Positions 4,786-32,185 of a stretch of 35,619 nt of DNA are shown here, one piece after another. The DNA is taken from contig JACMNL010000028.1 of assembly GCA_014378525.1 (NCBI GenBank), forward strand, positions 1-35,619, in the 5' to 3' direction. Origin of the DNA: Bacteriovorax sp. GTDB lineage: Bacteria > Bdellovibrionota > Bacteriovoracia > Bacteriovoracales > Bacteriovoracaceae. Position numbers and translations under genes: made by a program. The notes beneath the pieces were generated by a model. It saw only the letters and a list, made by a program, of their open reading frames with translations, was not told the DNA's origin and did no database searches. How positions within the stretch are numbered: the stretch's first letter is position 1; each line of letters opens with the position of its first letter.

Positions 4786-5436
4786 ATGAATCACAATGAT
4801 GCGATAGTGGAACCAGAGATTTTAAAAGAGCTCTCAAGCTTCGAAATTTTTTTCGGCCGCATGGGATTTAAAAGAATTGATGGAAGCGTTTTCGGATTAT
4901 TAATTCTCGCTAAAAAACCTCTGACTTCTGAAGAGATCGAACAGACATTAAATCTTTCTCAAAGTGCAGTTTCACTTTCATTAAAAACTCTCACACATTT
5001 TGGTGCTGTTGAAACAACCGGCGACCGCGATAACCGTGATACTAAAGCACGACTTCATTCTGCGAAAGAAGACTCGCTTTCAATCGTTGCCAGTGTTTTT
5101 AGAAAACGTGAAGAAGAAGTTGTGGCCGATTTTAAAAGAATGGCAATAAGAGTTCTGGAGAAATCTGAAAGTGCAGAGCACCTGGGACGCAAAAAAAGAA
5201 TGCAGTCGATTCTTACGACGTGTGAGATCGCTGAGTCTGTCATGAATTTTGTAATCACAATGGCCCACAGTAAATCGCGTTCTGATTACGATGCTCAATA
5301 TGAGGCAATGGTAAAACGTCTCCCAAAAGCACTCGACCTGCTTGCAACAACTGCGGGACCTCTCGCCGACTTCACTATGAATATCAAAGATAATTTAACC
5401 GAAAAATTTAAGAGTAATTTTAAAGGGATTCTTTAA
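4786..5436 (+). CDS. GbsR/MarR-family winged-helix transcriptional regulator
   Basis: A 216-residue protein. Residues ~25-95 form a winged helix of GbsR/MarR type: GSVFGLLILAKKPLTSEEIE, then LNLSQSAVSLSLKTLTHFGAVE (recognition helix) and a charged wing at GDRDNRDTKAR. A long helical C-terminal half would carry dimerisation and any ligand site. It is the first gene of the apparent regulator-KS-ACP-oxidoreductase-oleABCD operon and ends 12 bp before the ketosynthase. It is therefore probably the local regulator, acting at the inverted repeat 4702-4717. The effector is unknown; a fatty-acyl thioester or the olefin product is a guess from context. Confidence 0.8.
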   Translation: MNHNDAIVEPEILKELSSFEIFFGRMGFKRIDGSVFGLLILAKKPLTSEEIEQTLNLSQSAVSLSLKTLTHFGAVETTGDRDNRDTKARLHSAKEDSLSIVASVFRKREEEVVADFKRMAIRVLEKSESAEHLGRKKRMQSILTTCEIAESVMNFVITMAHSKSRSDYDAQYEAMVKRLPKALDLLATTAGPLADFTMNIKDNLTEKFKSNFKGIL

Positions 5437-5448
5437 GGAACAACTTTT

Positions 5449-6687
5449 ATGAAAAATGATAAACAGAGAATTGTTATAACTGGTATCGGGCTTACTTCTC
5501 CACTCGGAAATAACCTGTCTGAACTTCGCGAAGGTTTATTAAACGGTCGCAGTGGAATCGTTCACACAGAAATTCGTCATATGGGAAAAGTAGCTGCAGG
5601 ACTTTGTCGTTTTGATGAAACAAAACACCAGTCAAAAAAAATGAGGAAACGCGGGACACGTGCCGGTGCGATTTCAGTTTTTTGTACGAAAGAAGCATTG
5701 AATGATTCAGGTGTTGACTGGGATGCCACAGATAAAGCGCGCGTTGGTGTTTATCTGGGAATCACAGAGCACGGAAACGTTGAAACTGAAAATGAAATTC
5801 ACGATCTCTATAATTCGCATAATAAAGATGTATCGTTCTGGTCTCATCATCACAATCCAAGAACTGTGGCGAACAATCCAGCTGGAGAAGTCACTCTTAA
5901 TCTTGGGATTACCGGACCTCATTATACCATCGGTGCAGCTTGCGCTGCCGGAAATTTGGGAATTATTCAGGGTGCTCAACAGCTTCTTCTGGACGAAGTG
6001 GATCTAGCTTTTGCCGGCGGGATTTCAGAGTCGACAGAAACGTTCGGGATCTTTGCGGCCTTTAAAGCGCAGGGTGCTTTAGGGCATCACGATGATCCGT
6101 CACTTGCAACACGTCCGCTTGATGTAGATAGAAACGGTATTGTTGTTTCAGAAGGTGGAGCGGTTTACGTACTAGAGCGACTAAGTGATGCGAAAAAAAG
6201 AAATGCGAAAATTTACGGAGAAATTATCGGATACCATTCCAACAGTGATGCTTCGGATTTCGTTCTTCCCAATACAGAAAGACAAATTGAATGCATGAAG
6301 TACGCAATGAAAAAAGCAGGTATCGAGCCGGGTGAAGTTGATATCGTCAACATGCATGCGACGGGAACCAACCAGGGTGACATCCAGGAATGCCAGGCCG
6401 TTGCTGGTTTATTTTCGGGATGCCCTACTACATTTGTAAATGCGACGAAAGGATTTATCGGCCACGCGATGGGTGCTGCCGGTGCACTTGAGCTTGCAGG
6501 GAATATTCCTTCGTTCGTGGACGGGTATATTCACCCTTGTAAAAAAATTGAAAAACTTGACCCTGATTGTGCGATTCCGAATTTAGTTAACGGAGAGAAA
6601 ATCGCTCATGATGTAAAAATCATTCTGAATAACTCGTTTGGGATGCTCGGTATTAACTCAACACTTATAATTAAAAAGTACTCATAA
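5449..6687 (+). CDS. FabF-like beta-ketoacyl-ACP synthase (KAS II type)
   Basis: A 412-residue condensing enzyme of the thiolase fold. Family members extend acyl-ACP by two carbons using malonyl-ACP. The full catalytic set is present: nucleophile C165 in GAACAAG, H303 in NMHATGTNQGD, K334 and H339 in NATKGFIGHAMGAAG. Length matches FabF. The acyl-pocket loop at 190-212 (GGISESTETFGIFAAFKAQG) differs from the common FabF sequence, so chain specificity may be special. It lies between the regulator and an ACP gene with 12-bp gaps and has its own AAGGAA. The context suggests a dedicated elongating ketosynthase for the olefin pathway rather than the housekeeping FabF, since the usual fabD/fabH/plsX neighbours are absent. 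Confidence 0.9.
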   Translation: MKNDKQRIVITGIGLTSPLGNNLSELREGLLNGRSGIVHTEIRHMGKVAAGLCRFDETKHQSKKMRKRGTRAGAISVFCTKEALNDSGVDWDATDKARVGVYLGITEHGNVETENEIHDLYNSHNKDVSFWSHHHNPRTVANNPAGEVTLNLGITGPHYTIGAACAAGNLGIIQGAQQLLLDEVDLAFAGGISESTETFGIFAAFKAQGALGHHDDPSLATRPLDVDRNGIVVSEGGAVYVLERLSDAKKRNAKIYGEIIGYHSNSDASDFVLPNTERQIECMKYAMKKAGIEPGEVDIVNMHATGTNQGDIQECQAVAGLFSGCPTTFVNATKGFIGHAMGAAGALELAGNIPSFVDGYIHPCKKIEKLDPDCAIPNLVNGEKIAHDVKIILNNSFGMLGINSTLIIKKYS

Positions 6688-6699
6688 GGAGAAGACAAA

Positions 6700-6951
6700 A
6701 TGGTAACAAATGCAGAAGTACGTACAAAAGTTTTAGACATCATCGCTGACATCGCTCTTGATGACGACGTCACAGGAATTAAAGATGATGTAGCTCTAAG
6801 AGAGCAGCTGGACCTTGATTCAATGGATTTTTTAGACATCGTTATGGAGCTAAAAAAACGCCATAAGATTGAAGTTCCCCAGGAAGATTACCCGCGTTTA
6901 GCTTCAATGGCCTCGTGTGTGGAATATCTTGTTCCGAAGTTTAATCAGTAA
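6700..6951 (+). CDS. Acyl carrier protein
   Basis: An 83-residue four-helix carrier protein. S41 in LDLDSMDFLD is the phosphopantetheine attachment site; the Asp before it and the Met-Asp after it fit the DSL-type consensus with Met in place of Leu. The following helix, IVMELKKRHKIEVP, is the normal partner-recognition helix. AAGGAG precedes the ATG. It lies 12 bp after the ketosynthase and 2 bp before the CrtI-like oxidoreductase. This makes it the probable tether on which chains are built and modified before transfer to OleA. No phosphopantetheinyl transferase is encoded in the window, so a host enzyme must activate it. Confidence 0.9.
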   Translation: MVTNAEVRTKVLDIIADIALDDDVTGIKDDVALREQLDLDSMDFLDIVMELKKRHKIEVPQEDYPRLASMASCVEYLVPKFNQ

Positions 6952-6953
6952 TA

Positions 6954-8372
6954 ATGAGCAACCAGAAAGTTGATTGTATTATCATAGGTGCAGGGATGTC
7001 CGGTTTAGCGGCCGGCATTCGCCTGTCTATGTATAATAAAAAAGTTTTGATTCTGGAAAAACATTCAATCAGCGGTGGTTTGAATTCTTATTATGCCCGT
7101 GGAAAAAGAAAATTTGATGTAGGCCTTCATGCGCTGACAAATTTCGTGAGTCCATCGGATCGTGGAAAACCATTTAACAAACTGATGAAGCAGCTTCGTA
7201 TTCCGTATGAAGAATTTAAACTCTCTCAGCAGAATTATTCATTGATTCAGTTCCCTGAAAAAACGCTGAAATTTACCAATGAGATTAACGTTCTGACGGA
7301 AGAGATTTCGCGCAACTTTCCTCATGAAGTAGATGGGTTTATTCGTTTACTTGAGCACATCAGGAATTTTGATGAAGTGAATCTGAATAATGAAACAGTC
7401 ATGGCGAAAGTTGTGGTTGGGAATTTTATTAAAGAGAAGTCGCTGGTGGAAATGATCTTTTGCCCGCTTCTGATTTATGGAAGTGCGTGGGAAAACGATA
7501 TGGATTTTTCCCAGTTCGTGATTATGTTTAAGAGTATTTTTCTGGAAGGTTTTTCGAGACCTGAAGGTGGAGTGCGGACTATTCTGGATTTGCTTCTAAA
7601 GCGTCTGAAAGTTAATGGCGGAGAGTTGAAATACCGTGCGGAAGTGACAAGAATCATCAGTCACAATGGAAAAATATTCGGCGTGGAAATTAATCACAAT
7701 GAAATTATCGAATGTGATCAGGTACTCTCTTCGATGGGGCTTCCTGAAACCTATGGTGTGGTAAGTGAGTTTGAAGAACTAAAAAAACCACAGACTGGAA
7801 ATCTTTCGTTTTGTGAAAGTATTCTGGTCACTGACAAAAAACCGCGTGACCTCGGTATTGATGCCACAATTATATTTTACAACAACCGCCCTGAATATTT
7901 ATACCAGAAACCGAAAACACTTTTTGATACAGAAAGTGCAGTTGTTTGTTTTCCCAATAATTTTAAATATGACTCTTTTGAAGATGATTATTCTGAAGGT
8001 GTCCTTCGCGTGACGAACATTGCAAACTTTGAACTTTGGAATGAATTAAAATCTTCTGAAGATTCATATTTGTACCGTGAGCAGAAAGAAAATGTTTTTT
8101 TGAATGCTCAGAAAATTTTAAAAAGTTGCGGTCTTAAATCAGAATATAACGTTAACTTTAAGGATATTTTTACACCGACAACAATCAAACGCTACACTCA
8201 GCATTTTGATGGAACGGTCTATGGCTCTACTGATAAAAGCCGCAATGGAACAACTCCCATTCACGGACTTTATATCTGCGGGACTGACCAGGGATTTTTG
8301 GGAATTGTGGGCTCGATGTTGTCAGGAATATCAATGGCCAATCTTCACGTGCTTCAAGGTGATTTAAAATGA
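6954..8372 (+). CDS. CrtI/phytoene-desaturase-like FAD-dependent oxidoreductase
   Basis: A 472-residue flavoprotein. The N-terminal Rossmann fold is clear: IIIGAGMSGLAAG (G12, G14, G17), with E35 closing the ADP site in VLILEKH. The C-terminal FAD-contact block GLYICGTDQGFLGIVGSML is typical of the phytoene desaturase/CrtISO/retinol saturase superfamily. These enzymes desaturate, saturate or isomerise long hydrophobic chains. No carotenoid genes (crtB, crtE, crtY) are in the window. The gene starts 2 bp after the ACP and its stop overlaps the oleA start (ATGA). I infer that it acts on an acyl chain, perhaps ACP-bound, as a desaturase or isomerase. CrtI-like enzymes also occur in the candidate ladderane clusters of anammox bacteria. 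Direction of the reaction cannot be read from sequence. Confidence 0.85.
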   Translation: MSNQKVDCIIIGAGMSGLAAGIRLSMYNKKVLILEKHSISGGLNSYYARGKRKFDVGLHALTNFVSPSDRGKPFNKLMKQLRIPYEEFKLSQQNYSLIQFPEKTLKFTNEINVLTEEISRNFPHEVDGFIRLLEHIRNFDEVNLNNETVMAKVVVGNFIKEKSLVEMIFCPLLIYGSAWENDMDFSQFVIMFKSIFLEGFSRPEGGVRTILDLLLKRLKVNGGELKYRAEVTRIISHNGKIFGVEINHNEIIECDQVLSSMGLPETYGVVSEFEELKKPQTGNLSFCESILVTDKKPRDLGIDATIIFYNNRPEYLYQKPKTLFDTESAVVCFPNNFKYDSFEDDYSEGVLRVTNIANFELWNELKSSEDSYLYREQKENVFLNAQKILKSCGLKSEYNVNFKDIFTPTTIKRYTQHFDGTVYGSTDKSRNGTTPIHGLYICGTDQGFLGIVGSMLSGISMANLHVLQGDLK

Positions 8373-9400
8373 AATTCAATAATGTTGTGATTGAAAGTTT
8401 TGGATACGATTTATCAGACACTGTTGTGAAGTCTTCTGAAATTGAAACACGACTTGGAGTTTTGTACGAAAAGTTAAAACTTCCGGAAGGACGTCTGGAA
8501 CTCATGACGGGAATAGCTGAGCGAAGAATGTGGGCGCCGGGAACCAAACCGAGTGACCTGTCGACGAAAGCAGCACTTTCTTGTTTATCAAAATCAAAAA
8601 TTAAGAAAGAAAATATTGATCTGCTCATTCATGCCTCAGTTTGCCGCGATTTTTTAGAGCCGGCCACGGCCTCTGTGGTTCATGCCAATCTTGGTCTATC
8701 AAGAAAAGCGATGATCTTCGATTTATCAAATGCGTGTCTTGGTGTGGTGAATGCAATTGTTGTTGCTGGAAACATGATTGAAAGCGGCCAGATAAAAACG
8801 GCGCTGATTGTTTCCGGTGAAAATGGCGGGCCATTGCTTGAGAGCACACTTGAAGTGCTTTTAACCAATCCATCTATTGATAGAAAAAATATCAAAAAGT
8901 ATATTGCGAACCTTACGATCGGCTCTGCAGCGACTGCGATATTGATTACACATAAAAGTTTATCACCTGACTCGCCAGAAGTTTTGGGTGGAGCCGTTGA
9001 AACAGACTCAAGTGCAAATCATTTATGTCGAGGTGATGGAAATACTCACTCACTTGTTATGGAAACTGATTCGGAAGAATTGTTGAAGTACGGAGTGGCA
9101 CTTGGGCAATCAACGTGGCAAGAGGCCCGCAAGAATCTTGGCTGGACCAATAGTGATGTGGATTTTGTTATTACACATCAGGTGGGAACAGCTCATGAAA
9201 AATTATCTTTAGAATCGTTAGAATTAAATAAAACAAGAACTTTTAAAACTTACCCATTTTTAGGTAACACCGGATCCTCTGCGCTTCCGGTAACTTTAAT
9301 GATGGCCAGTGAGAAGGGCGAAATCAAAAAAGGCGACAAAATCGCGCTTCTTGGAATCGGCTCAGGACTTAGTTCAATAATGTTAGGGGTGAAGTGGTGA
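8369..9400 (+). CDS. oleA: OleA: acyl-CoA head-to-head condensing thiolase
   Basis: A 343-residue KAS III/thiolase-fold enzyme that joins two acyl thioesters to a 2-alkyl-3-ketoacid in long-chain olefin synthesis. Catalytic residues are visible: C123 in SNACLG, H270 in FVITHQVG and N300 in LGNTGSSALP. CRDFLEPATAS carries a Glu (E97) at the position where OleA donates a glutamate into the partner subunit's site; that feature separates OleA from FabH. The identity is secured by the downstream oleB, oleC and oleD. The start overlaps the preceding stop (ATGA). Known OleA enzymes use acyl-CoA; the adjacent ACP raises the question of acyl-ACP use here. Confidence 0.92.
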   Translation: MKFNNVVIESFGYDLSDTVVKSSEIETRLGVLYEKLKLPEGRLELMTGIAERRMWAPGTKPSDLSTKAALSCLSKSKIKKENIDLLIHASVCRDFLEPATASVVHANLGLSRKAMIFDLSNACLGVVNAIVVAGNMIESGQIKTALIVSGENGGPLLESTLEVLLTNPSIDRKNIKKYIANLTIGSAATAILITHKSLSPDSPEVLGGAVETDSSANHLCRGDGNTHSLVMETDSEELLKYGVALGQSTWQEARKNLGWTNSDVDFVITHQVGTAHEKLSLESLELNKTRTFKTYPFLGNTGSSALPVTLMMASEKGEIKKGDKIALLGIGSGLSSIMLGVKW

Positions 9401-10257
9401 TAGTTCCTCAAAATTTAAAAAATGAATATCCTTTTAATCCGCACTTCAATCAGGTGGGAAAAGATAAATTACACTATATTGATGAAGGGACCGGCGAAGT
9501 CATTTTTATGCTTCACGGTAATCCTACGTGGTCTTTCTTTTACAGAAATCTTGCGAAACATTTCAGTAAAACGAATCGTGTAGTAGTTCCCGATCATATC
9601 GGCTGCGGGTTGTCTGATAAACCTCAGGATTATGAGTACACCCTGGAAAATCATATTGAGAACACAGTTTCTCTAATTAAAAAACTTGGTTTGAAAGATA
9701 TCACTTTAATCGTTCACGATTGGGGTGGAGCGATCGGTATGGGTGTGGCCACCCGTCATCCTGAGCTTATTAAAAAAATGGTTATTATGAATACGGCAGC
9801 GTTTCGCTCTATGGAAATCCCTATGAGGATTAACATTCTTAGAAATCCGGTTGGCGAATGGTTTATCAGAACTTTCAATGGATTTGCAGGGCCTGCAACA
9901 ACAATGGCCGTGACAAAAAAATTATCTCCGCTGGTTAAGCAGGGATTTATTTTACCTTACGATAATTTTGAATCGAGAATAGCAACGGCGAAATTTGTCC
10001 GCGATATTCCAATGGACACAAGTCATCCGACTTACAAAACGCTATCAAACATTGAAGATAAGCTGAAAAATTTAAAAGTCCCTACTCTGCTTTTATGGGG
10101 AGAGCAGGATTTTTGTTTCACGATGAATTTCCAGAAAAGATGGCTGGAGTTTTTTCCTGATTCTAAAGTTAAGACTTTTCCGGATGCCGGCCACTACCTG
10201 GTGGAAGATAAAACGAAAGAAGTCATTGCAGAAATTGAAACATTTTTAAAAGCGTAA
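9397..10257 (+). CDS. oleB: OleB: beta-lactone decarboxylase (haloalkane-dehalogenase fold)
   Basis: A 286-residue alpha/beta hydrolase. OleB turns the cis-beta-lactone made by OleC into a cis-olefin and CO2. The haloalkane-dehalogenase-type triad is visible: nucleophile D108 in VHDWGG, acid D238 in WGEQDF and base H266 in DAGHY. The HGNPTW oxyanion loop is near residue 40. The nucleophile is Asp, not Ser, as expected for OleB. Two GTG codons (9394, 9397) can start it. I choose 9397 because GTGA then overlaps the oleA stop and AGGGG sits at better spacing. The gene is separate from oleC, unlike the oleBC fusions of some bacteria. Confidence 0.9.
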   Translation: MIVPQNLKNEYPFNPHFNQVGKDKLHYIDEGTGEVIFMLHGNPTWSFFYRNLAKHFSKTNRVVVPDHIGCGLSDKPQDYEYTLENHIENTVSLIKKLGLKDITLIVHDWGGAIGMGVATRHPELIKKMVIMNTAAFRSMEIPMRINILRNPVGEWFIRTFNGFAGPATTMAVTKKLSPLVKQGFILPYDNFESRIATAKFVRDIPMDTSHPTYKTLSNIEDKLKNLKVPTLLLWGEQDFCFTMNFQKRWLEFFPDSKVKTFPDAGHYLVEDKTKEVIAEIETFLKA

Positions 10258-10264
10258 AACTGAA

Positions 10265-11908
10265 ATGAATATAGCTGCAAGACTGTCTGCCAATGCGAAA
10301 ACCTTCCCCGATAAAAAAGCGGTCGTGTTTCCTGTATTCAATAAAAAAACTAAAGTCTATGACTACCAGTCGCTGACATTTCGCGAGCTGGAAATACGTT
10401 CAAATAAGTTTGCCACTCAACTGGAGAAACTGGGATTAAAAAAAGGAGACAAGACTCTTCTTTTTTTACGACCGAGTCTGGATTTTTCGGCCATGACATT
10501 CGCTCTTTTTAAACTGGGAGTCGTTCCTGTTTTTATCGATCCGGGAATGGGCAGGGCCAATCTTTTGAAATGTATTAAAGAAGCAAAACCTGTGGGACTC
10601 ATCGCTGAAAAAGAAGTTCATATCGCCCGTCTGCTATTCCGTGGAACTTTTAAATCAATTAAATTCAGCGTCACTAACGGCAGTCGTTCATGGGGACGCA
10701 TGCTGAAGATCTCGTCGATGAAGATGGAAAAAACGCAGACATTTAAGAGTGCCACATTTGAGGCGGATGATACAGCGGCCATTCTTTTTACTTCAGGTGG
10801 AACGGGTGCACCTAAAGGTGTGGTTTACTCGCATTCTATTTTTGACCAGCAGACAACAATTCTGCGCGACCTGTATAATCTTTCAATGCACGATGTGGAC
10901 CTTCCAGGGTTCCCGCTTTTTTCTCTTTTCACCATTGCAATGGGGATGACGAGTTGTATTCCCGATATGGATCCCAGTAAACCGGGTTCATGTGATCCAA
11001 AAAAACTTTATCAAAATATCATTGATCAGAAACCTACTTTCGTTGCGGGATCTCCTGCAATCTGGGAACGTGTGGCAGATTACTGCATTGAAAATAATTT
11101 AACTCTTCCTGGTGTTAAATATGTCGTGATGTTTGGTGCGCCTGTTTCTGTGTTAATTCATAGAAAATTTAAAGCGCTTTTACCTAATGGAACAACTTAT
11201 ACACCTTATGGTGCAACTGAAGCTCTTCCGGTGAGTAACATCAGTGGCGACTTTATTTTAAAGAATACTGCTCAGGCGACTGAAAACGGGAAAGGAACCT
11301 GTATCGGAACTCCTGCTCCGGGCACAACAGTAAAAATAATTAAAATTACTGATGATGTGATTGAAAAATTATCTGACGCTAAGATTTTATCGCCGAATGA
11401 AATCGGTGAAATAATTGTCAGTGGTCCGACTGTGACGAAAGAGTATCTTGATTTGCCTTCGATCACCCGTGAAGCAAAAATTTATGATGGTGAAACCATC
11501 TGGCACCGTATGGGTGACATGGGATTTGTAGATCCGGATGGATTATTATGGTTTTTAGGAAGAAAAGGACACCGCGTGGAAACAACGGAAGGACTCATGA
11601 CTCCAATTTCAGTTGAAGCAATTTTTAACAGACATCCTTCTGTCAGAAGATCTGCACTGATTGGTCTTGGGAAATTAGGAAGGCAAACTCCGGCCATCGT
11701 CATTGAGCGAAGTGACGGGCAATTTTTATCAGGAAAAGAAAGATCCATATTTGAAAGTGAGCTTTTATCACTCGCTAAAAAATCTCCTCATACGGCCATG
11801 ATTCAGAAAATATTTTTAAGTAAACATTTTCCAGTCGATGTTCGTCACAATATAAAAATCGACCGGACTAAATTAAAAGAAGAAATAGAAAGTCATGACG
11901 AAAATTAA
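10265..11908 (+). CDS. oleC: OleC: beta-lactone synthetase (AMP-ligase superfamily)
   Basis: A 547-residue acyl-adenylate-forming enzyme. OleC uses ATP to close 2-alkyl-3-hydroxy acids to beta-lactones. The phosphate loop is LFTSGGTGAPKG (~174-185), with Gly where Ser is usual in SGSTG. YTPYGATEA (312-320) is the aromatic/Glu motif, WHRMGDMG carries D418, and LGRKGHRVET follows. IDPGMGRANLLKCI (91-104) and PVDVRHNIKIDR near the C-terminus are characteristic of OleC rather than ordinary acyl-CoA ligases. It starts 7 bp after oleB with a weak ribosome site, so coupling is likely, and overlaps oleD by 14 bp. Confidence 0.92.
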   Translation: MNIAARLSANAKTFPDKKAVVFPVFNKKTKVYDYQSLTFRELEIRSNKFATQLEKLGLKKGDKTLLFLRPSLDFSAMTFALFKLGVVPVFIDPGMGRANLLKCIKEAKPVGLIAEKEVHIARLLFRGTFKSIKFSVTNGSRSWGRMLKISSMKMEKTQTFKSATFEADDTAAILFTSGGTGAPKGVVYSHSIFDQQTTILRDLYNLSMHDVDLPGFPLFSLFTIAMGMTSCIPDMDPSKPGSCDPKKLYQNIIDQKPTFVAGSPAIWERVADYCIENNLTLPGVKYVVMFGAPVSVLIHRKFKALLPNGTTYTPYGATEALPVSNISGDFILKNTAQATENGKGTCIGTPAPGTTVKIIKITDDVIEKLSDAKILSPNEIGEIIVSGPTVTKEYLDLPSITREAKIYDGETIWHRMGDMGFVDPDGLLWFLGRKGHRVETTEGLMTPISVEAIFNRHPSVRRSALIGLGKLGRQTPAIVIERSDGQFLSGKERSIFESELLSLAKKSPHTAMIQKIFLSKHFPVDVRHNIKIDRTKLKEEIESHDEN

Positions 11909-12887
11909 AGTCCTCGTTACAGGTGCAGGCGGATTTTTAGGCGGGTATATTGTCCGTGATCTGATGGCGTCTGGTTTGTATGAAGTTTTTTCTTTTTCAC
12001 GAAGTCTTTATCCTAAGCTTGATACTCTTGGGGTGGTTCAACGTCAGGGGGATTTAGGGAATTATGAAGATGTTGAAGCTGCACTCACTGGAATGGATGC
12101 AGTTATTCATACCGCTTCACAGGTTGGGATGTGGGGGCATTATAAAGATTTTTATCGCACCAATGTAACTGGCACAGAAAATATAATTCATGCCTGTCAT
12201 AAGTTAAATATTTCTAAACTGGTTTATACCAGTACACCGAGTGTGGCGTTTGGTGATCAGAGTCTATGCGGCGTGAATGAATCGACACCTTATCCTGAAA
12301 GATATTTTAGTATGTATGCAGAGACAAAAGCGATTGCGGAGAAGATTGTTCTTCTTGCAAATAACGGTGTGTTGTCGACTGTGGCCCTAAGACCGCATTT
12401 AATTTTCGGGCCTGGAGATTTGAATCTGGTTCCCCGTGTGGTTGAAGCAGCGAGAGCGGGTAAATTAAAAATTATTGGTGACGGTGAAAATTTAGTTGAT
12501 GTGACTTATGTGGAGAATGCTTCACTCGCGCACGTAATGGCGCTGGAAAAATTAAATTCTAAATCTTCTATTGCCGGCAAGGCGTATTTTTTAGGCCAGG
12601 GGCCGGTAAAGTTATGGGATTTTACCAATGAGCTTTTAAAGCGCTCTGGTGAGGCGCCTGTGACTCAGAAAATTCCGTTTGGTGTAGCGTACTTCGTAGG
12701 GTTTCTGATTGAAGTGATGCTGAAGCTTGCGGGGAAATTTGATACTCATCCTGCGATGACGAGGTTTGTGGCCTTGCAGTTGGGCAAGTCACATTATTAT
12801 AGTCATAAAAATTTAGAAAATGATTTAGGTTTTGTGCCTAAATATTCTATTGAAGAAGGACTGGATAAACTTTTTCAAACCTATTGA
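11895..12887 (+). CDS. oleD: OleD: NAD(P)H-dependent 2-alkyl-3-ketoacid reductase
   Basis: A 330-residue extended short-chain dehydrogenase. OleD reduces the OleA product to the 2-alkyl-3-hydroxy acid used by OleC. It shows the nucleotide motif VTGAGGFLGG (TGxxGxxG) at residues 8-17, S113 in YTSTPSV, and the catalytic pair Y141/K145 in SMYAETKAIAEK. The RPHLIFGPGD block is typical of the 3-beta-HSD-like branch to which OleD belongs. It overlaps the end of oleC by 14 bp and is the last gene of the operon; the stop overlaps the convergent secreted-protein gene by 7 bp. No terminator is visible. Confidence 0.92.
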   Translation: MTKIKVLVTGAGGFLGGYIVRDLMASGLYEVFSFSRSLYPKLDTLGVVQRQGDLGNYEDVEAALTGMDAVIHTASQVGMWGHYKDFYRTNVTGTENIIHACHKLNISKLVYTSTPSVAFGDQSLCGVNESTPYPERYFSMYAETKAIAEKIVLLANNGVLSTVALRPHLIFGPGDLNLVPRVVEAARAGKLKIIGDGENLVDVTYVENASLAHVMALEKLNSKSSIAGKAYFLGQGPVKLWDFTNELLKRSGEAPVTQKIPFGVAYFVGFLIEVMLKLAGKFDTHPAMTRFVALQLGKSHYYSHKNLENDLGFVPKYSIEEGLDKLFQTY

Positions 12888-14980
12888 TCCACCACCACCG
12901 ACGAAGGCGCACGCAAGTTCTCTACGCGCATATAATTATCAACAGCTCCCAGCCCTTTAAAGGCCCCTTCATGAAAGCTCGTCGAGAACGTGCTACCCTC
13001 CGCTGTGACTGCATCGAACGATCCGAAGAAAAATACGTTTTGAACTCCGAACAAGTTGTAGAAATGAACTTTACTGTAAGAATTGTTCACGATGTTGCTC
13101 GAAAGATTTTTTAAAGGCCATAGTGGAACATTAACCCACTCTGACTCTTGAAGTGCTGTCATATCTGCAAGGCAGTTTTTAATATACGCACGTTTTTTGG
13201 CCGGAAAGAAAAAGAACTTCATAGCTTTTTTCTCACAGCTATTGATCGCATCGCTTGAAACTTTATCGTGAGTTAAATCTTTTAAGTAATCTACATAATC
13301 GTTTTGAAGTGAGTTTCTGCAGCCATCAAAAAGATTTCTCAGGTTGAAAAAACTTGATTTAGGATATTCATTGCAAAGACCATCAAGATAATCAAAGACT
13401 GTTCCGATTTGCTGATGATTTAAATATCTAATCCCGTCAATATTGACCTGGTAACTTCCCTGCACGTGGAAAGGTGCTTTTAACTGCTCATTATCAATCA
13501 TTGTAACGGCAATCGGGTCTACACCTGAAAAGCGCTCAAGAATAAACTTTGCACGGTCGCGGTATTTTTTACCGGACATACCAGTAGTTTTTTGTGTCGT
13601 GAAATCTGAAACGAAGGTCATCGATAATTTTTGCTCGTTATTTGAAGAGACTCCAACATCAAGGTACTCGCGTGCTTCAAGCAGGTTTCTTGTACTGTCG
13701 TATTCTAGAGTAACTTTTTTTGTATCACTTGCAAGATTCGTTGCCGAGACATCTGAATTTGTAAGTGCAAAAATGAAGCTTGCAAATAATCTTGAGATGA
13801 AACTTTCTGTGTATTTCATTTTTTCGTAATAGTGACGGAAGAAAGTTTTTACAACTCCTTTAGTTGTAATTTCAATTTGCTGAGTTTTGGAATTTTTTTG
13901 TCCACCCAATAAAAGGAAATTGTATTTGTGTGAGATTGTCTGAGAAACTTTCTTTTCTTCAGAGATGATATAAGGAGCAAGGATATCTAAATCCCCTTCG
14001 CGGTTTTTTAAAATCTGCTGAATTTCCATTGAGACCGGGCTTTGAACATCAAGTTCTTTCAAGTCCATTTGGGCCATGTTCAGGTACACTTTATAACTTG
14101 AATCCATTTCATAACTAAAGTCGTAGGAAAGAAGAGTCATCTTCAGGATGTGAAGGAAGTCGGCCTGAAGAGCTAAACTTACACCAGCAGTAGCGATTTT
14201 TGATTTTTCTGAAGTGATTTGAAGATGTGAATCTCCAAGTGAAACAACTTCTACTCTCGTAAGTTTTTCAAACTTTGCCAGAACACCGGCCATTCCTGTT
14301 ACACCTGTATAAATAGGTGCTGATACAATTCCACCTGCTTTAACTGAAATTGAGTCTTCCTTGAAAACCATTTCGTTCGGGTCAAGGTTTGCTACATTTG
14401 AAATACTAAGAGCTGTAAAAGGCATGAAAAGTTTTTCGAAGTGGCCCATCAATCCATCGTTATATGAATTGGCGTAGTGAACCCATGTGAATTTTCTTTT
14501 GAAAACAATCCCTGCGAAGGCCGCGAGATTTTCTTGTGACATATCGATGACCTGCTGGTCGCGAAGGCTTCCGAAAACTTTGGAAGCGTCGATATCAACT
14601 GTAAATGTGTCTGTAACAATCCAGCGCTTGTCATCGAAAAGATCGGGTGCCAGGTTTCTGTCTAAACTCACGCCGAAATTTATAAATGGTTTTCTATAAG
14701 AGAACCCGATGCTGTTAAGGCCACCGGTAATTGAAAGAGCATTGTTGGCAAGAACACGTTCTGCTTCTCTTTTTCCAATCGCTGCATATGTTAAATTGAA
14801 TTCATCTGCAATCTGCTGATAAAGACTTGCGTCTCCACCAACTGTCGTATCAACACCAGTGCCAGTGGCCGAGATGCTTTTTAATTGAGTGAGTGTATTA
14901 AAACTGTCTTGAGCATGAGCGAATGTCATCGTCACAAGTGACAGCGTAGTCAAAACTAAGACTTTTAATTTGGTTTTCAT
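12881..14980 (-). CDS. Large secreted protein of unknown function
   Basis: A 699-residue protein with a signal peptide (KTKLKVLVLTTLSLV, cleavage after AHA near residue 23). The body mixes long beta-rich stretches with polar linkers. Cysteines cluster only in the last third (LCNEYP, DGCRNS, NSCEKK, KNCLAD), compatible with disulfides outside the cytoplasm. The start is placed at the ATG at 14980, because GGGG lies six to seven bases upstream and the hydrophobic core then follows directly; an ATG four codons earlier (14992) has no ribosome site. I recognise no domain. It lies between the ole operon and the divergent DAHL-like gene, with no evidence that it takes part in lipid synthesis. Confidence 0.65.
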   Translation of the reverse strand: MKTKLKVLVLTTLSLVTMTFAHAQDSFNTLTQLKSISATGTGVDTTVGGDASLYQQIADEFNLTYAAIGKREAERVLANNALSITGGLNSIGFSYRKPFINFGVSLDRNLAPDLFDDKRWIVTDTFTVDIDASKVFGSLRDQQVIDMSQENLAAFAGIVFKRKFTWVHYANSYNDGLMGHFEKLFMPFTALSISNVANLDPNEMVFKEDSISVKAGGIVSAPIYTGVTGMAGVLAKFEKLTRVEVVSLGDSHLQITSEKSKIATAGVSLALQADFLHILKMTLLSYDFSYEMDSSYKVYLNMAQMDLKELDVQSPVSMEIQQILKNREGDLDILAPYIISEEKKVSQTISHKYNFLLLGGQKNSKTQQIEITTKGVVKTFFRHYYEKMKYTESFISRLFASFIFALTNSDVSATNLASDTKKVTLEYDSTRNLLEAREYLDVGVSSNNEQKLSMTFVSDFTTQKTTGMSGKKYRDRAKFILERFSGVDPIAVTMIDNEQLKAPFHVQGSYQVNIDGIRYLNHQQIGTVFDYLDGLCNEYPKSSFFNLRNLFDGCRNSLQNDYVDYLKDLTHDKVSSDAINSCEKKAMKFFFFPAKKRAYIKNCLADMTALQESEWVNVPLWPLKNLSSNIVNNSYSKVHFYNLFGVQNVFFFGSFDAVTAEGSTFSTSFHEGAFKGLGAVDNYMRVENLRAPSSVVVDQ

Positions 14981-15134
14981 CGAAGACCCCATCTGATACG
15001 TGACATTCTATAGAGGCTCTTCGGTGATCCCTAGTCAAAGCTTGATCGTTTTAGTTTCCTATGTTTAACGATTACTGATAATTCGAAAAAGTGCCAAGAT
15101 TTTGTAGCAGTTCGCTATGTAAGGCAGCATCATT

Positions 15135-15176
15135 AAAGTTTTTTGATCAAGTATCCGATAGTGATCGCAAAACTTT
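15135..15176. repeat. Nested inverted repeat flanked by direct repeats
   Basis: Outer arms AAAGTTTT (15135-15142) and AAAACTTT (15169-15176) enclose inner arms GATCA (15145-15149) and TGATC (15162-15166), with a two-base internal bulge on each side and a 12-nt loop. A 9-bp direct repeat, GCATCATTA, lies on both sides (15127-15135 and 15187-15195). It occupies the divergent promoter gap, 25 bp before the DAHL-like start. It could be a cruciform operator or a leader hairpin. There is no T-tract for a terminator. Confidence 0.5.
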
Positions 15177-15200
15177 TCCTTTTCAGGCATCATTACCGGA

Positions 15201-16007
15201 ATGAGACTCAAGATATTTATTCTGTCCACCATGCTCATCACTTTAATAAGTGGCGTGCTTTTTTATAAAAATCTCACACAGATAAAATCGCCTTCCAGCG
15301 GTCTTTTAAAAATCGATTTTGATGAAGTTCGTACACTGGATTTACAGGTTTACAGCACGACTCTCTTGTTGAGACAAAATCTTGGTGCGGATGTTAATGA
15401 ACTTAAAGATGAAAACACTCGTATAAAAGAGTTGCTTGATATTTTAAACGACATAAATAAAAATACGCCTGAACTTAAAGACTCGATTTCTAAAATCAGA
15501 AATCATTTTTTATTGAAGCAAAAACATATTGAGGCCTTTCAAGTCGCAGTGAAAGACCTGCGCACAAATATCAATGCACTGATGCCAGCTTACAATGAGC
15601 TGGAAAGGAAAAATATAAAATTTGTCCTTGATAAAAGAGATTTCTATCGTGAGTGTATCCTCGACTCTTATATGTTTGTTTCTTTTTCTCACAAAGATAA
15701 TGAAACCAGACTGACTGATGACCAGAAAGTTCTTGGGCAAATCGTAAGTTATGCCACAACACCAAATCCTGAACTGCAGAAATTTTCCGGATACCTGGAT
15801 ACCATTCACAAGCGTGTGAAAGAGCTCGATACATATACAAAAGAATTTAAAGAAGTGACGATAGCACCTGAAATGAAAGTTATTGCAAAATACTATCAGG
15901 AAAGTCTACAGGCACAGAGTGACCAGAATGAAAACCTGCTGACATTCATGTTTGCGGCCATCGGAATTTATTTGTTGTTCATGATTTTTATTTTGAGAAA
16001 ATCTTAG
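15201..16007 (+). CDS. Membrane-anchored periplasmic helical protein, DAHL-domain-like
   Basis: A 268-residue protein with a transmembrane helix at 4-22 and another at about 245-264, leaving a ~220-residue, mostly alpha-helical periplasmic domain. The pattern LDLQVYSTTLLLRQNL, then KELLDIL, then KQKHIEAFQVAVKDLRTNINAL resembles the DAHL sensory domain (LDA..+.V..LR, KE..VE.FK..NA.LRN). DAHL domains normally sit in front of histidine kinases or diguanylate cyclases. Here the protein ends four residues after the second helix (RKS), so no output domain is present. It may act with a partner protein or be a degenerate sensor. The family assignment is by motif memory and uncertain. Its stop overlaps that of fabI. 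Confidence 0.6.
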   Translation: MRLKIFILSTMLITLISGVLFYKNLTQIKSPSSGLLKIDFDEVRTLDLQVYSTTLLLRQNLGADVNELKDENTRIKELLDILNDINKNTPELKDSISKIRNHFLLKQKHIEAFQVAVKDLRTNINALMPAYNELERKNIKFVLDKRDFYRECILDSYMFVSFSHKDNETRLTDDQKVLGQIVSYATTPNPELQKFSGYLDTIHKRVKELDTYTKEFKEVTIAPEMKVIAKYYQESLQAQSDQNENLLTFMFAAIGIYLLFMIFILRKS

Positions 16008-16801
16008 TCGCGTTTAGCGAAGGCCTGCACGACACTCTCATCAAAATAATTTGAACTCATTCCCGCGTCCACCACCATTCCACTGGCATTCACTCCACTT
16101 GAGGCAGGGCTTAATAAAAAGACTACAGAGTTTGCAACTTCCTGTGTATCTAAGGCCTGGTGTCTCATCGTCAGTTGTTCAGCGTAGAGATAGTTGTCGA
16201 TATAGCCTGGAATTCCTGCTGAAGCAGAAGTTTTTAAGGGGCCGGCACAAACAGCATTGAAGCGGATTTTTGTATCTTTAGAAAAAGATTTTGCGAGAAA
16301 TAAAACTGCGGCATCGAGAGATGCTTTTATCGGTCCCATGTAACCGTAGTTTGTGGCCTTTGTGCTTGAAATTGAAATTGTCACAACAGAGGCATCAGAT
16401 ACAAGAACATTTTTAATGGCGTTTGAAAGTGAGACAAGAGAGAAACATGAAATGTTTGAGGCCTGAAGATAATCCTGCAGGTTTGTTTCATGAAAAGGTT
16501 TGATTCCTTCCGAATAATTGGCGAAAGCAATTGAATGAAGAAAGCCGTTTAATTTGATTTTTTCTTCTTCGAGTTTTTTTCCGAATGCTTCTACTTCATT
16601 CGTATTTTCAACATCCAGAATATAGATTTTTTTATTCGGGAATAGTTTTGAAACTTTTTCTTTAATGTCATCGTTCTGGACAGTGAAAATTAAATCAGCA
16701 CCGTTTTCTTCCAGCGTTTTTGCCGAAAAATAGGCCACCGATTTTTTATTGGCCACACCAGTGATCAGAAATGTTTTATCTTCTAGTTTTAAAAAACTCA
16801 T
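16004..16801 (-). CDS. fabI: FabI-like enoyl-ACP reductase (divergent)
   Basis: A 265-residue SDR of the FabI class, which reduces trans-2-enoyl-ACP with NAD(P)H in the last step of elongation. Visible are the FabI nucleotide motif ITGVANKKSVAY (13-24) and HSIAFA (89-94). The FabI-type catalytic spacing Y152-x6-K159 is seen in NYGYMGPIKASLD, and the C-terminal NSVVFLLSPASSGVNASGMVVDAG block is also present. The stretch between the catalytic strand and Y152 reads ISISSTKA where E. coli FabI has the longer LSYLGAERA. It is therefore two residues shorter and lacks the Tyr146 position. This suggests altered substrate or inhibitor behaviour. Last gene of fabG-fabZ-fabI, 12 bp after fabZ. Confidence 0.85.
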   Translation of the reverse strand: MSFLKLEDKTFLITGVANKKSVAYFSAKTLEENGADLIFTVQNDDIKEKVSKLFPNKKIYILDVENTNEVEAFGKKLEEEKIKLNGFLHSIAFANYSEGIKPFHETNLQDYLQASNISCFSLVSLSNAIKNVLVSDASVVTISISSTKATNYGYMGPIKASLDAAVLFLAKSFSKDTKIRFNAVCAGPLKTSASAGIPGYIDNYLYAEQLTMRHQALDTQEVANSVVFLLSPASSGVNASGMVVDAGMSSNYFDESVVQAFAKRD

Positions 16802-16813
16802 CTTTATACTCTC

Positions 16814-17221
16814 TTATACACTCGCTACGGCAAATTCAATGACGAGAACTGTCTTGCCTGCAACTTTTGTTGTCCCCTTCATATAGTGAGCGTTGGAGAT
16901 GGATTCAGTTAATTCAACTTCCATTTCCAGCAGATCACCGGGGCGAACCATGTTTTTAAATTTTGCGTTTTGAACTCTTGTCACCACACCGAGACCACCG
17001 CCTGCCATTCCGGCCATGAGTGCAGCTCCTGTCTGAAAAAGTGCTTCCTGAAGTAAAACTCCCGGCATGATCGGGTTGCCAGGAAAGTGACCTTTAAAAA
17101 AATCTTCTTCGCCCGTCACCTGAAATGAAGTCTTGATTGTTTTTTCCAATCTCTCGACTATTTTATCGACGAATAAAAATGGCGGACGTTGAGGAATTAA
17201 ATCAGTGACGGAAGGATACAT
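16814..17221 (-). CDS. fabZ: FabZ-like 3-hydroxyacyl-ACP dehydratase
   Basis: A 135-residue single hot-dog domain that dehydrates 3-hydroxyacyl-ACP to trans-2-enoyl-ACP. The central helix motif GHFPGNPIMPGVLLQEALFQ contains catalytic H45 and E59. The leading QRPPFLFVDKI matches the FabZ strand, and FKNMVRPGDLLEMEVEL is the second family block. Slightly shorter than usual FabZ (about 140-150). Its ATG shares one base with the fabG stop (TAATG), and a strong GGAGG lies six bases before it, within the end of fabG. Whether it can also isomerise to the cis-3 isomer like FabA cannot be told from sequence. Confidence 0.9.
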   Translation of the reverse strand: MYPSVTDLIPQRPPFLFVDKIVERLEKTIKTSFQVTGEEDFFKGHFPGNPIMPGVLLQEALFQTGAALMAGMAGGGLGVVTRVQNAKFKNMVRPGDLLEMEVELTESISNAHYMKGTTKVAGKTVLVIEFAVASV

Positions 17222-17958
17222 TAAAGACCTCCGGAAATTTCTAAGCTCGCCCCTGTAATATAACTCGCCTCTTTGCTGGCGAGAAATAAAACGGCACTCG
17301 CCACTTCTTCAACTTTTCCAAAACGCTTCATCGGAACATCTTTCATATATTCTTTTCTCTGTTCTTCAGGAAGATCAGCGAGAAGTTCAGTGTCGATGAA
17401 TCCCGGGCACACATTGTTTACTGTGATCCCGCGTTTTGCGACTTCTTTTGATAATGATTTTGAAATGGCGATTTGTCCTGCTTTTGAAGCGGCGTAGTTT
17501 GCCTGCCCCGGTAATCCCAAGCTTCCACCGATTGAAGACATGTTCACGATTCTTCCGTAACGATTTTTCATGAACTGAAGGACAGCATGTTTGCTCATCA
17601 GGAAAGTTCCAGTGAGATTCGTGCTGATGACATCATTCCATTCAGCAAGAGTCATCATTGCCGTCACCTGATCTTTTCTGATGCCGGAGTTGTTGATCAG
17701 CACTTCAACTTTCGGAAAAGTTTCTTCTATAAATTTATAAAATTCGATGACAGCATTTTCATCTCTCACGTCGCATTTTTTTACATGCAATTTATCGCTG
17801 AACTTTGCATTGTCTTCTTTCATTTTACTGGCGGCCTGGTCGTTACCAGCATAAGTGGCAATAACAGTAGCGCCCTTGTTTAAAAAAGACTCGACGATTC
17901 CTCTACCTATGCCGCGAGTTCCACCTGTAACGATGACTGTTTGATTTGTAAAATCCAT
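17221..17958 (-). CDS. fabG: FabG-like 3-oxoacyl-ACP reductase
   Basis: A 245-residue classical SDR that reduces 3-oxoacyl-ACP with NADPH. It has TGGTRGIGRG (11-20) for the cofactor, NNSGIRKD (89-96), and the triad S142/Y155/K159 in SSIGGSLGLPGQANYAASKA with the same 13-residue Ser-Tyr spacing as FabG. VCPGFIDTEL and a terminal SGGL complete the family pattern. AAGAGG lies eight bases before the ATG, and a -10-like TAAAAT is at 17990-17985 on this strand. First gene of fabG-fabZ-fabI. The usual fabD/fabH/acpP neighbours are missing, and the ketosynthase and ACP of the ole operon lie about 10 kb away. It is thus a candidate part of that dedicated pathway. Confidence 0.9.
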   Translation of the reverse strand: MDFTNQTVIVTGGTRGIGRGIVESFLNKGATVIATYAGNDQAASKMKEDNAKFSDKLHVKKCDVRDENAVIEFYKFIEETFPKVEVLINNSGIRKDQVTAMMTLAEWNDVISTNLTGTFLMSKHAVLQFMKNRYGRIVNMSSIGGSLGLPGQANYAASKAGQIAISKSLSKEVAKRGITVNNVCPGFIDTELLADLPEEQRKEYMKDVPMKRFGKVEEVASAVLFLASKEASYITGASLEISGGL

Positions 17959-18221: not shown

Positions 18222-18884
18222 ATGAAAAAGACTCTACGTAAAAATTCTCAGCTGACATTTCTAAATCCAAAAGGTGCTGGAAGAAAAGCTATTCATGATA
18301 AAGGGATTCGTCATATTGAGCGAGAAGCAATCAAGAAAGATACTGTGCTTCACCTGACGCTGAAAATTACGCGAGAAAAAGCAGCACTGAAAAATAAAAT
18401 GATTCTTAAATGTCTTCACCATTCGATTAAAAAGGCACGTGGATTAGGGTTGAAAGTTATACAGTACACGCTTGAGTATGATCATATTCATTTACTGGTG
18501 GAAGCTTCTGACAAAGTTCAGCTGGGAATTGGTATGCAGTCCCTGGGGATTAGTCTTTCGAAAGGAATTAATAAAATAAAAGCACAGAAAGGAAAAGTTT
18601 TTAAAAACCGTTATCATTTCAGGAAACTTTCAACACCTAAAGAAATTAAAAATGTTCTCAATTATATACTTGGGAATGGTATCAAGCACAAAGAAACAAC
18701 ATCCATCGTAAATCCTTATAATTCATTATGCGGAATTAAATTTTTAAAAAATCTTTATCCGGGATTTGAATTAATGATTGAAGAAACCATTCAAAAAAGT
18801 CATCATTTATCAAAATTAAGAGAGGAATTAAAATCGGTACTCACCTCTCCACGAAATTATCATCTAAGGCAGATTGTTGGTTAA
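18222..18884 (+). CDS. Y1-type (IS200-like/RAYT) transposase-family protein, probably domesticated
   Basis: A 220-residue HUH endonuclease-like protein. The HUH motif is H88-I-H90 in LEYDHIHLLVEA, and the single catalytic Tyr is Y148 in NVLNYILGNGIKH. This is the order and spacing of Y1_Tnp/REP-associated tyrosine transposases, which nick single-stranded DNA at hairpins. Both active-site elements are intact. No subterminal IS200-type hairpins, target duplications or REP-like palindromes are visible around it, so it does not look like a mobile copy. A RAYT-like housekeeping role on dispersed hairpins elsewhere in the genome is possible. It is followed one base later by a GNAT gene. Confidence 0.8.
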   Translation: MKKTLRKNSQLTFLNPKGAGRKAIHDKGIRHIEREAIKKDTVLHLTLKITREKAALKNKMILKCLHHSIKKARGLGLKVIQYTLEYDHIHLLVEASDKVQLGIGMQSLGISLSKGINKIKAQKGKVFKNRYHFRKLSTPKEIKNVLNYILGNGIKHKETTSIVNPYNSLCGIKFLKNLYPGFELMIEETIQKSHHLSKLREELKSVLTSPRNYHLRQIVG

Positions 18885-18885
18885 C

Positions 18886-19326
18886 ATGAAATTTATTTTT
18901 TATTTTGAACTCACGCCAAAATTAAAAAAAGAAATTGAAGAAATTTATCCGCAAGTGTTCGGGACATTTGATAAAGAAAAATTTTTTGACAGGTTCGAGT
19001 ATCATAAAAAATTTATGATGATCATGGCCTATAAAAAAGATGAACCGGTGGCCTTTAAGTTTGGATACGCCCAGGACCGCGATACATTTTATTCGTGGAC
19101 TGGTGGAGTGATTCCTTCAGAGCGCAGACAAGGGATTGCTGAAGAGCTGATGCGCAGACAACATGACTGGTGCATTGAAAATAAATACAAATTTGTTGAA
19201 ACAAGAAGCAGAAATAAATTTCCTGAAATGCTGGCGTTAAATATCAAGCATGGCTTTAAGATCACGGGAACATTCACTGAAACCGATGGTGCACCGAAAA
19301 TTATCTTCAAAAAAGAACTTGTCTAA
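18886..19326 (+). CDS. GNAT-family N-acetyltransferase
   Basis: A 146-residue single-domain acetyltransferase. Motif A, the acetyl-CoA pyrophosphate loop, is GVIPSERRQGIAEELM (R/Q-x-x-G-x-A), preceded by the strand FYSWTGG and followed by a helix with WCIENKYKFVETRSRN. The C-terminal ALNIKHGFKITGTF is the usual motif B region. The substrate is unknown. The ATG one base after the transposase stop is chosen; upstream TTG codons in frame lack support. No clear Shine-Dalgarno is present, so translation probably depends on coupling to the upstream gene. The two are therefore likely co-transcribed. Confidence 0.8.
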   Translation: MKFIFYFELTPKLKKEIEEIYPQVFGTFDKEKFFDRFEYHKKFMMIMAYKKDEPVAFKFGYAQDRDTFYSWTGGVIPSERRQGIAEELMRRQHDWCIENKYKFVETRSRNKFPEMLALNIKHGFKITGTFTETDGAPKIIFKKELV

Positions 19327-19419
19327 CGCATGAAGCATCAACTGTAATAAATCTTTAGTTTCCATCCTACCACTTCACTCCTAGATTTATAGAGCATATC
19401 TAATAATCAGGAGGCAACT

Positions 19420-32107: not shown

Positions 32108-32169
32108 GGCTTAAGTATCACAGTTTTTTGGGAAACTGTCCGAAAAGACTAAAGAATGAACCTTAGGCC
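32108..32169 (+). promoter_or_regulatory. Structured leader RNA before the coiled-coil secreted protein
   Basis: GGCTTAAG (32108-32115) pairs fully with CTTAGGCC (32162-32169), eight pairs including one U.G. Inside lies a second hairpin, ACAGTTT (32120-32126) with AAACTGT (32133-32139) and a six-base loop. The outer stem ends four bases before the AGGA (32173-32176) that serves the ATG at 32186. Folding could therefore control ribosome access. It matches no riboswitch class I know, including c-di-GMP and fluoride types. Confidence 0.4.
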
Positions 32170-32185
32170 ATTAGGAATGAATGCT

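Follow-up and report, generated by a model that had tools for sequence, protein, structure and literature searches.

A candidate discrete type II polyunsaturated-acyl synthase encoded with head-to-head olefin genes in Bacteriovorax sp.

In Shewanella, the Pfa synthase feeds OleA and a 31:9 hydrocarbon results (PMC6463001), and Geobacter bemidjiensis, which carries pfa and ole genes in tandem, makes C31:9 (PMC4882568). Desulfotalea psychrophila makes C31:8 and C31:9 hydrocarbons and, according to Rattray 2009, has a genome without a Pfa-type synthase; therefore, another route must exist (PMC2649909). The same article described phytoene-dehydrogenase-like genes that lie with type II fatty-acid synthesis (FASII) and radical SAM genes, and proposed an anaerobic route to polyunsaturated fatty acids (PUFA) (PMC2649909). 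That proposal, made for Desulfotalea and anammox bacteria, is the closest prior idea to the system described here. The DNA analysed (hereafter the window, 35,619 nucleotides) is a whole contig (C94, JACMNL010000028.1) of a 3.6 Mb draft genome, 93% complete, of Bacteriovorax sp., a relative of predatory bacteria. It encodes a FabF-like beta-ketoacyl-ACP synthase (KS), an acyl carrier protein (ACP), two CrtI/CrtISO-like flavoproteins (designated CRT1 and CRT2), FabG, FabZ, FabI and OleABCD, and is thus a concrete eleven-gene candidate for a Pfa-independent route to polyunsaturated hydrocarbons. We consider it probable that these genes specify a discrete type II synthase that is dedicated to polyunsaturated acyl chains and works together with head-to-head olefin synthesis.

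In Shewanella and G. bemidjiensis, OleA receives polyunsaturated chains from a synthase of their own, and the same supply is proposed here; the window differs in its discrete small proteins, in having no PfaA, in a FabZ without evident FabA-like isomerase and in its two CrtI-like flavoproteins. With the FASII clusters of D. psychrophila and Kuenenia it shares the conjunction of FabF, ACP and phytoene-dehydrogenase-like genes and the lack of Pfa. The published clusters contain radical SAM genes, with FabI encoded outside them, whereas no radical SAM family was found among the 29 window open reading frames (ORFs) scanned with Pfam. The OleABCD pathway is represented by all four genes in order, and the operon differs in carrying its own KS and ACP. 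With the CrtI/CrtISO carotenoid enzymes, CRT1 and CRT2 share a flavin adenine dinucleotide (FAD)-dependent fold and a sequence superfamily, but they fall far under the curated cut-offs and have KS, ACP and FabGZI as partners. No word beginning with 'ole' occurs in the main text of Rattray 2009 (PMC2649909), and our literature search, outside which most subscription papers lay, found no paper describing KS-ACP-CrtI with ole genes.

Gene content and active sites

Eight tightly packed genes on the forward strand (4786–12887) form one operon in the order REG-KS-ACP-CRT1-oleA-oleB-oleC-oleD. The gaps are 12 bp between REG and KS and between KS and ACP, 2 bp between ACP and CRT1 and 7 bp between oleB and oleC, and there are overlaps of 4 bp (CRT1/oleA), 7 bp (oleA/oleB) and 14 bp (oleC/oleD). 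FabI, FabZ and FabG are encoded on the reverse strand (16004–17958), with the near end of fabI 3.1 kb past oleD. A first-pass annotation, made from the letters alone, had described a packed operon with gaps of up to 12 bp and several overlaps, an intact Cys-His-His set in the KS and a fabG-fabZ-fabI operon about 3 kb away, and in all of this it was right: every ORF lies where it was placed and matches the family it was given. Its gene list held good for each gene named; REG (4786–5436) went unnamed and CRT2 (19819–21255) lies outside the range that it covered.

The operon opens with REG, a winged-helix regulator barely over the cut-offs of Pfam HTH_5/HTH_27. It is followed by the KS (5449–6687; PF00109/PF02801), which has an intact Cys165-His303-Lys334-His339 set invariant in 48 class-side and 36 other aligned rows, and by the ACP (6700–6951; PF00550), the DSMD phosphopantetheine site of which contains Ser41, invariant in 49 and 26 rows, respectively. 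CRT1 (6954–8372) matches Pfam Amino_oxidase/NAD_binding_8. OleA (8369–9400), the head-to-head condensing thiolase, scores 420.7 bits with NF006720 (cut-off 285). OleB (9394–10257; Pfam Abhydrolase_1), a haloalkane-dehalogenase-like beta-lactone decarboxylase, has as its best NCBIfam match haloalkane dehalogenase (182.5 bits, under the cut-off of 241), which we take to be kin of OleB. OleC (10265–11908), the beta-lactone synthetase, scores 622.5 bits with NF006754 (cut-off 478), and OleD (11895–12887), the 2-alkyl-3-oxoalkanoate reductase, 362.5 bits with its best match NF042422, under the cut-off of 580. The four Ole proteins are thus encoded together and in order, each being most like its Ole family.

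On the reverse strand lie the FabI-like enoyl-ACP reductase (16004–16801; PF13561, FabI models as its best NCBIfam matches at 170.7 bits, under the cut-off of 370), the Glu-type FabZ dehydratase (16814–17221; NF000582 at 113.1 bits, just at the cut-off of 113) and the FabG ketoreductase (17221–17958; NF009466 at 252.5 bits over 222, TIGR01830 at 281.8 under 297.75). His45/Glu59 of FabZ are invariant in 26 class-side and 19 other rows and Tyr152/Lys159 of FabI in 27 and 23; Cys123 of OleA, Asp109/His267 of OleB, Tyr141/Lys145 of OleD and Tyr155/Lys159 of FabG are likewise present and invariant in the aligned rows. These alignments comprised near-full-length rows, and the class-side rows may include one locus (L107) from another class. 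The residues named are those that we take to be the catalytic motifs of the KS, ACP, OleA, OleB, OleD, FabG, FabZ and FabI families. Glu59 presumably marks the FabZ type, unlike the isomerising FabA, and therefore a FabA-like isomerase is not evident in the module.

CRT1 and CRT2 (19819–21255, reverse strand) show the fold and the FAD motif of the CrtI/CrtISO superfamily and score far under its curated NCBIfam cut-offs: 92.4 and 118.6 bits, respectively, with the carotenoid isomerase model (cut-off 586.9; 3.2e-34 for CRT2) and 51.7 and 75.4 bits with crtI_fam (cut-off 238.1). The closest Protein Data Bank (PDB) fold to their AlphaFold2 models (predicted local distance difference test scores 92.5 and 86.1) was 4rep, a gamma-carotenoid desaturase, with template modelling scores of 0.72 for CRT1 and 0.73 for CRT2. 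The two are distant paralogues; window CRT1 is 22–25% identical to CRT2s of other phyla, and the weak second CRT1 matches in relatives (24–31%) are mostly their CRT2 genes. Retinol saturase, a relative of the CrtI-like enzymes, removes double bonds, and the fold superfamily includes reductases. It could be supposed that CRT1 and CRT2 are saturases or reductases of this kind, the more so as their best sequence model is an isomerase and not a desaturase; the FabI-like gene of the module already gives enoyl reduction, however, and we regard this as very improbable.

Gene order within Bacteriovoracia and beyond

Conservation was assessed in 129 genomes of the class Bacteriovoracia and in a phylum sample of 368. 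CRT1 was found at E <= 1e-40 in 106/129 class genomes and in 107/368 genomes of the phylum, one of them outside the class; at 1e-20 it was found in 109/129, and because three of these (G078, G099 and G121) have a partial match or CRT2-level matches only, the stricter threshold was used. OleA was detected at 1e-40 in 106 of the 129 (over cut-off in 102) and CRT2 at 1e-60 in 106, three genomes (G126–G128) that figure in no positive list being taken as negative for both. CRT1 and OleA occur together in 104 class genomes, CRT1 only in 2, OleA only in 2 and neither in 21, an association with a Fisher p of about 1e-19, a value that ignores kinship, linkage and incomplete assemblies. The association of CRT1 with CRT2 is weaker (both 99, CRT1 only 7, CRT2 only 7, neither 16); the exceptions are often fragmented genomes, yet G012 (99% complete) is without CRT2 and G010 (90%) has CRT2 only. 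As CRT1, OleA and CRT2 are all missing in seven class genomes of at least 91% completeness, some lineages truly lack the entire system.

For gene order, 53 stretches were fetched for the presence of CRT1, spread over genera; two divergent ones (L104 and L106) were left out, and the remaining 51 loci comprise 50 from the class and one (L107) from another class of the phylum. KS and ACP are contiguous in 49/49 loci with both, ACP and CRT1 in 48/49, CRT1 and OleA adjoin in 47/47, OleC and OleD in 40/44, and REG stands directly before the KS in all 28 relatives in which both were found. The second operon begins in relatives with CRT2, which adjoins FabG in 24/25 loci with both (FabG-FabZ 26/26, FabZ-FabI 27/27). 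In the window, CRT2 is parted from fabG by a stretch on the forward strand (18222–19833) encoding Y1 transposase, GNAT and weakly DUF1036-like ORFs (Pfam), which stand outside the system; as the two genes are neighbours in all but one of these 25 relatives, this stretch with its Y1 (IS200-like) transposase looks like an insertion that split a CRT2-fabG operon. In L061 and L062, CRT2-FabG-FabZ-FabI comes straight after OleD on the same strand (OleD and CRT2 adjoin in 2/24 loci with both), and L107 reads KS-ACP-CRT1-CRT2-FabG-FabZ before its contig ends. Since these three loci join both gene sets, the window's two operons are most plausibly separate halves of a single system. In one locus (L070) CRT1 is not followed by any ole gene, and the cluster of another (L076) is without OleA; each of these genomes carries OleA on another contig. 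A named Halobacteriovorax marinus isolate (L122) has the operon, and the OleA of this species, which belongs to the same class, is reported to be active (PMC7064751).

Beyond the class, a CRT1 alignment was used to search 84,980 species genomes; at least 587 pattern-matched stretches were listed, of which at least 541 encode a relative (tblastn, 1e-3). The best 80 of the 541 were kept, so that the spread given here is a minimum and favours close relatives; phyla were read from the titles of metagenome-assembled genomes, where misbinning is possible. By title, identity and cluster type, 41 of the 80 loci were taken as lying outside Bacteriovoracia, and several of them stop at contig ends. Among these 41 there is a KS in 34, an ACP in 36, CRT2 in 31, CRT2 with all of FabGZI in 23 and OleA in 17; CRT2 follows CRT1 or OleD in 31. 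All eleven genes stand in a row, KS-ACP-CRT1-OleA-OleB-OleC-OleD-CRT2-FabG-FabZ-FabI, in four loci of Smithella/Syntrophaceae type (L129, L130, L135 and L136). Five Chloroflexota records (L164, L166, L167, L178 and L196) have OleA-KS-ACP-CRT1-CRT2-FabG-FabZ-FabI, and in the two Chloroflexota-labelled loci tested (L164 and L173) genes for a 4'-phosphopantetheinyl transferase (PPTase; PF01648) and an acyl transferase (PF00698) come after FabI, the one acyl transferase tested (L164) being over the FabD cut-off of TIGR00128. In a planctomycete (L182), oleABCD is divergent from KS-ACP-CRT1-CRT2-FabZ-FabI, and record titles place a shorter KS-ACP-CRT1 form in Verrucomicrobiota. The cluster front is doubled in three Chloroflexota- or Planctomycetota-labelled loci (L171, L173 and L175), with KS-ACP with or without OleA and then OleA-KS-CRT1-CRT2. 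None of the best 80 of the 541 CRT1 loci is from Gammaproteobacteria or Actinobacteria.

Six Nitrospina loci (L170, L174, L176, L183, L189 and L193) have the KS, ACP, CRT1, CRT2, FabG, FabZ and FabI with no ole genes adjoining, the KS and ACP lying 0.4–1.8 kb apart in L174, L176, L183 and L189, and three more (L177, L179 and L180) have no KS beside ACP/CRT1. Genomes with the core almost always have OleA too, even where it does not adjoin: it is over cut-off in 25/28 non-class genomes with CRT1, those of L165, L193 and L195 being without it, versus 0/14 controls (2/14 at 1e-30). The core of KS, ACP, CRT1, CRT2, FabG, FabZ and FabI is thus spread wider than oleABCD and often stands apart from it. 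Both the size and the distribution of the system exceed what the first-pass annotation could reveal. The recurrence of the gene order across phyla rules out a chance neighbourhood. The order KS-ACP-CrtI-oleABCD, the comparison of which across genomes had been suggested, is strongly conserved and recurs in other phyla; the earlier idea of one CrtI-like enzyme working with oleABCD stands as to the CrtI-like partner and has to be amended to two such enzymes in a core that often does not adjoin oleABCD.

The two divergent loci set aside above contain ACP-CRT1-like pairs (L104, 1–2890; L106, 3509–6480) with no KS beside them. The pairs adjoin a different flavoprotein, weakly FAD_binding_3/Trp-halogenase-like, and L106 has a partial OleA-like ORF at the contig end on the other strand; perhaps they belong to a separate pathway on ACP-bound substrates.

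These arrangements bear on the stage at which the CrtI-like enzymes would act. They could work after OleABCD on a finished C30-range hydrocarbon, as CrtI does on phytoene, to give a polyene pigment-like hydrocarbon; their closest folds are carotenoid desaturases, which act on hydrocarbons, and CRT1 overlaps oleA. We find this quite improbable, however, as CRT1 stands directly behind the ACP in 48/49 relatives, L104 has its divergent ACP-CRT1-like pair without an adjoining KS or ole gene, and the six Nitrospina loci have both CRTs with the KS, ACP and FabGZI and no adjoining ole gene. The divergent pairs of L104 and L106 point to an ACP-bound substrate.

Source of the acyl chains and predicted pathway

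The first-pass annotation had envisaged a small dedicated type II synthase and advised a check for a second, housekeeping fab set. The KS, ACP and fabGZI are not the sole copies in the genome, which with the conserved order bears out that view. All 10 KS-family candidates were scored and four matched: a hybrid A-ACP-KS-AT-ACP-aminotransferase protein of 2156 aa, a FabF over the FabF cut-off on C54, next to an ACP that the contig end truncates, the KS of the window and, on C106, a weak match of 39 positions (30.9 bits). C123 carries adjacent FabD and FabG genes and C92 a FabI-like gene; one FabZ-like gene on C33 adjoins what we take to be an lpxA-like gene and another is on C51. A housekeeping role for the window fabGZI is ruled out by these FabD/FabG, FabF/ACP, FabZ and FabI genes elsewhere. 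FabD (L090) and the PPTase (L042), which had been noted as missing from the window and expected from primary metabolism, are both present in the genome. On L042 (1–7361, reverse strand) a hybrid A-ACP-KS-AT-ACP-aminotransferase megasynthase lies beside the PPTase gene, and L045 (4994–10639, reverse strand) of the same genome encodes a nonribosomal peptide synthetase with thioesterase; both are candidate sources of natural products.

The window proteins are only distantly similar to their own-genome copies (KS 32%, FabI 31%, FabG 39%, FabZ 30% and 26% to the two FabZ-like proteins, ACP 29% over 58 residues), and KS, ACP, FabG, FabZ and FabI are each closer to their counterparts in other phyla. 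The KS is 59–69% identical to KSs beside CRT1 (L130, L135, L166, L174, L186 and L194), and FabI and FabG are 52–67% and 56–63% identical to those beside CRT2 in other phyla; one locus (L132), with the highest KS and ACP values, matches class genome G108 in position and length and was left out of these cross-phylum comparisons. In a KS tree of 29 rows, for which the program gave long-branch warnings, 25 module KSs formed one clade (support 96/92), outside which fell the genome's FabF and megasynthase KS and two further KSs of Smithella. Module KSs of Smithella nest within those of Bacteriovoracia in this tree, suggesting transfer.

No PfaA was found among the four KS matches of the genome, and there was no match to TIGR02813 at 1e-80 (2/6 candidates scored); Pfa is therefore rejected as the source of chains in this genome, which is 93% complete. 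Elsewhere, with two candidates scored per class genome and up to eight per genome in the other 28, PfaA matched at 1e-80 in 12/129 class genomes, 1/28 other CRT1 genomes and 3/14 controls, and was over cut-off in 1/129, 0/28 and 0/14, respectively; the controls include no known PfaA bearer, and G058 is the sole positive. This genome, with its PfaA on C140, also has CRT1 and OleA.

In the pathway that we propose, the KS and ACP would build the chain, with malonyl-ACP and ACP activation from the genome's own FabD and PPTase; FabG would reduce, FabZ dehydrate and FabI carry out enoyl reduction where a double bond is to be lost. While the chain is bound to the ACP, CRT1 and CRT2 would introduce or position its double bonds without oxygen, either as O2-independent dehydrogenases or as flavin-dependent isomerases acting on enoyl-ACP, standing in for the FabA-like dehydratase/isomerase domains of the Pfa PUFA synthase. 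OleA would then condense two chains head to head, OleD reduce, OleC lactonise and OleB decarboxylate, to yield a long polyunsaturated hydrocarbon (C31:9-like). Polyunsaturation is our best guess. O2-dependent desaturases would be excluded in Smithella, Dehalococcoidia and Desulfotalea, as these are strict anaerobes.

The module might instead give special chains that are not polyunsaturated, of a set length or with one double bond, from which OleABCD would make simple olefins, leaving the CrtI-like enzymes an accessory task, for example one desaturation or isomerisation. FabI keeps its Tyr/Lys pair, the product is a predicted one and in other bacteria the chains that enter Ole pathways are saturated, monounsaturated or branched (PMC6463001). 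We nevertheless think this unlikely, given that two flavoenzymes are kept across several phyla in an otherwise minimal synthase and that a dedicated set would carry a high cost where ordinary membrane chains would do.

Several other points weigh against a polyunsaturated-acyl synthase feeding OleA. The NCBIfam cut-offs specific to OleC and OleD are unreached, two olefin beta-lactone synthetase models scoring OleC at 493 and 489 bits against 850 and 900. The module holds a single KS and no chain-length factor, and its FabI would saturate chains. To our knowledge, no homologue of CRT1 or CRT2 has had its function assayed. Many non-class loci have no adjoining ole gene, OleA being in 17/41 (of the best 80 of 541), and five (L168, L185, L187, L191 and L194) are without CRT2/FabGZI beside CRT1 despite 3 to 10 kb following. 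For this organism the hydrocarbon is a predicted product. Two anammox phytoene-desaturase-like proteins are reported to be without CrtI activity (PMC4790861). Pfa-like clusters of some deltaproteobacteria and planctomycetes have been proposed as a source of olefin precursors (PMC3098273), and there Pfa would remain a rival source of chains.

With these points in view, we still favour the polyunsaturated-acyl synthase, and the gene set recurring in several phyla may be a second way to polyunsaturated head-to-head hydrocarbons. More tentatively, as a possibility to be taken seriously, we suggest that the system represents a class of oxygen-independent polyunsaturated-lipid synthases that has so far gone unrecognised; record titles place it in Bdellovibrionota, Thermodesulfobacteriota, Chloroflexota, Nitrospinota and Planctomycetota. 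In this discrete type II assembly line, the trans/cis and positional isomerisation (or dehydrogenation) on acyl-ACP for which Pfa uses FabA-like domains would fall to two CrtISO-type flavoproteins, and the chains would feed OleA to give polyunsaturated hydrocarbons. The cluster may reveal by what means anaerobes introduce more than one double bond into an acyl chain, as long postulated for ladderane precursors; if true, the PUFA-like synthase would be discrete and easy to re-engineer, and two flavoenzyme activities would be new.

Neighbouring genes

A scan of the window found promoter-like sites no more numerous than in shuffles, and four window ORFs of unassigned family gave no match in a PHROGs search. 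Two very large ORFs on the forward strand (26010–31055 and 32156–35584; 1681 and 1142 aa) have no Pfam or PHROGs match. Between oleD and fabI lie a 703-aa protein without Pfam match (12881–14992, reverse strand), which recurs there in many class relatives, and a DAHL-like protein (15201–16007, forward strand), which recurs in a few same-genus relatives. DUF7453-like and FAD-dependent (PF21688) genes (21259–24020, reverse strand) are packed directly upstream of CRT2, and one or both are found beside CRT2 in some class relatives, e.g. L050, L075, L079 and L082.

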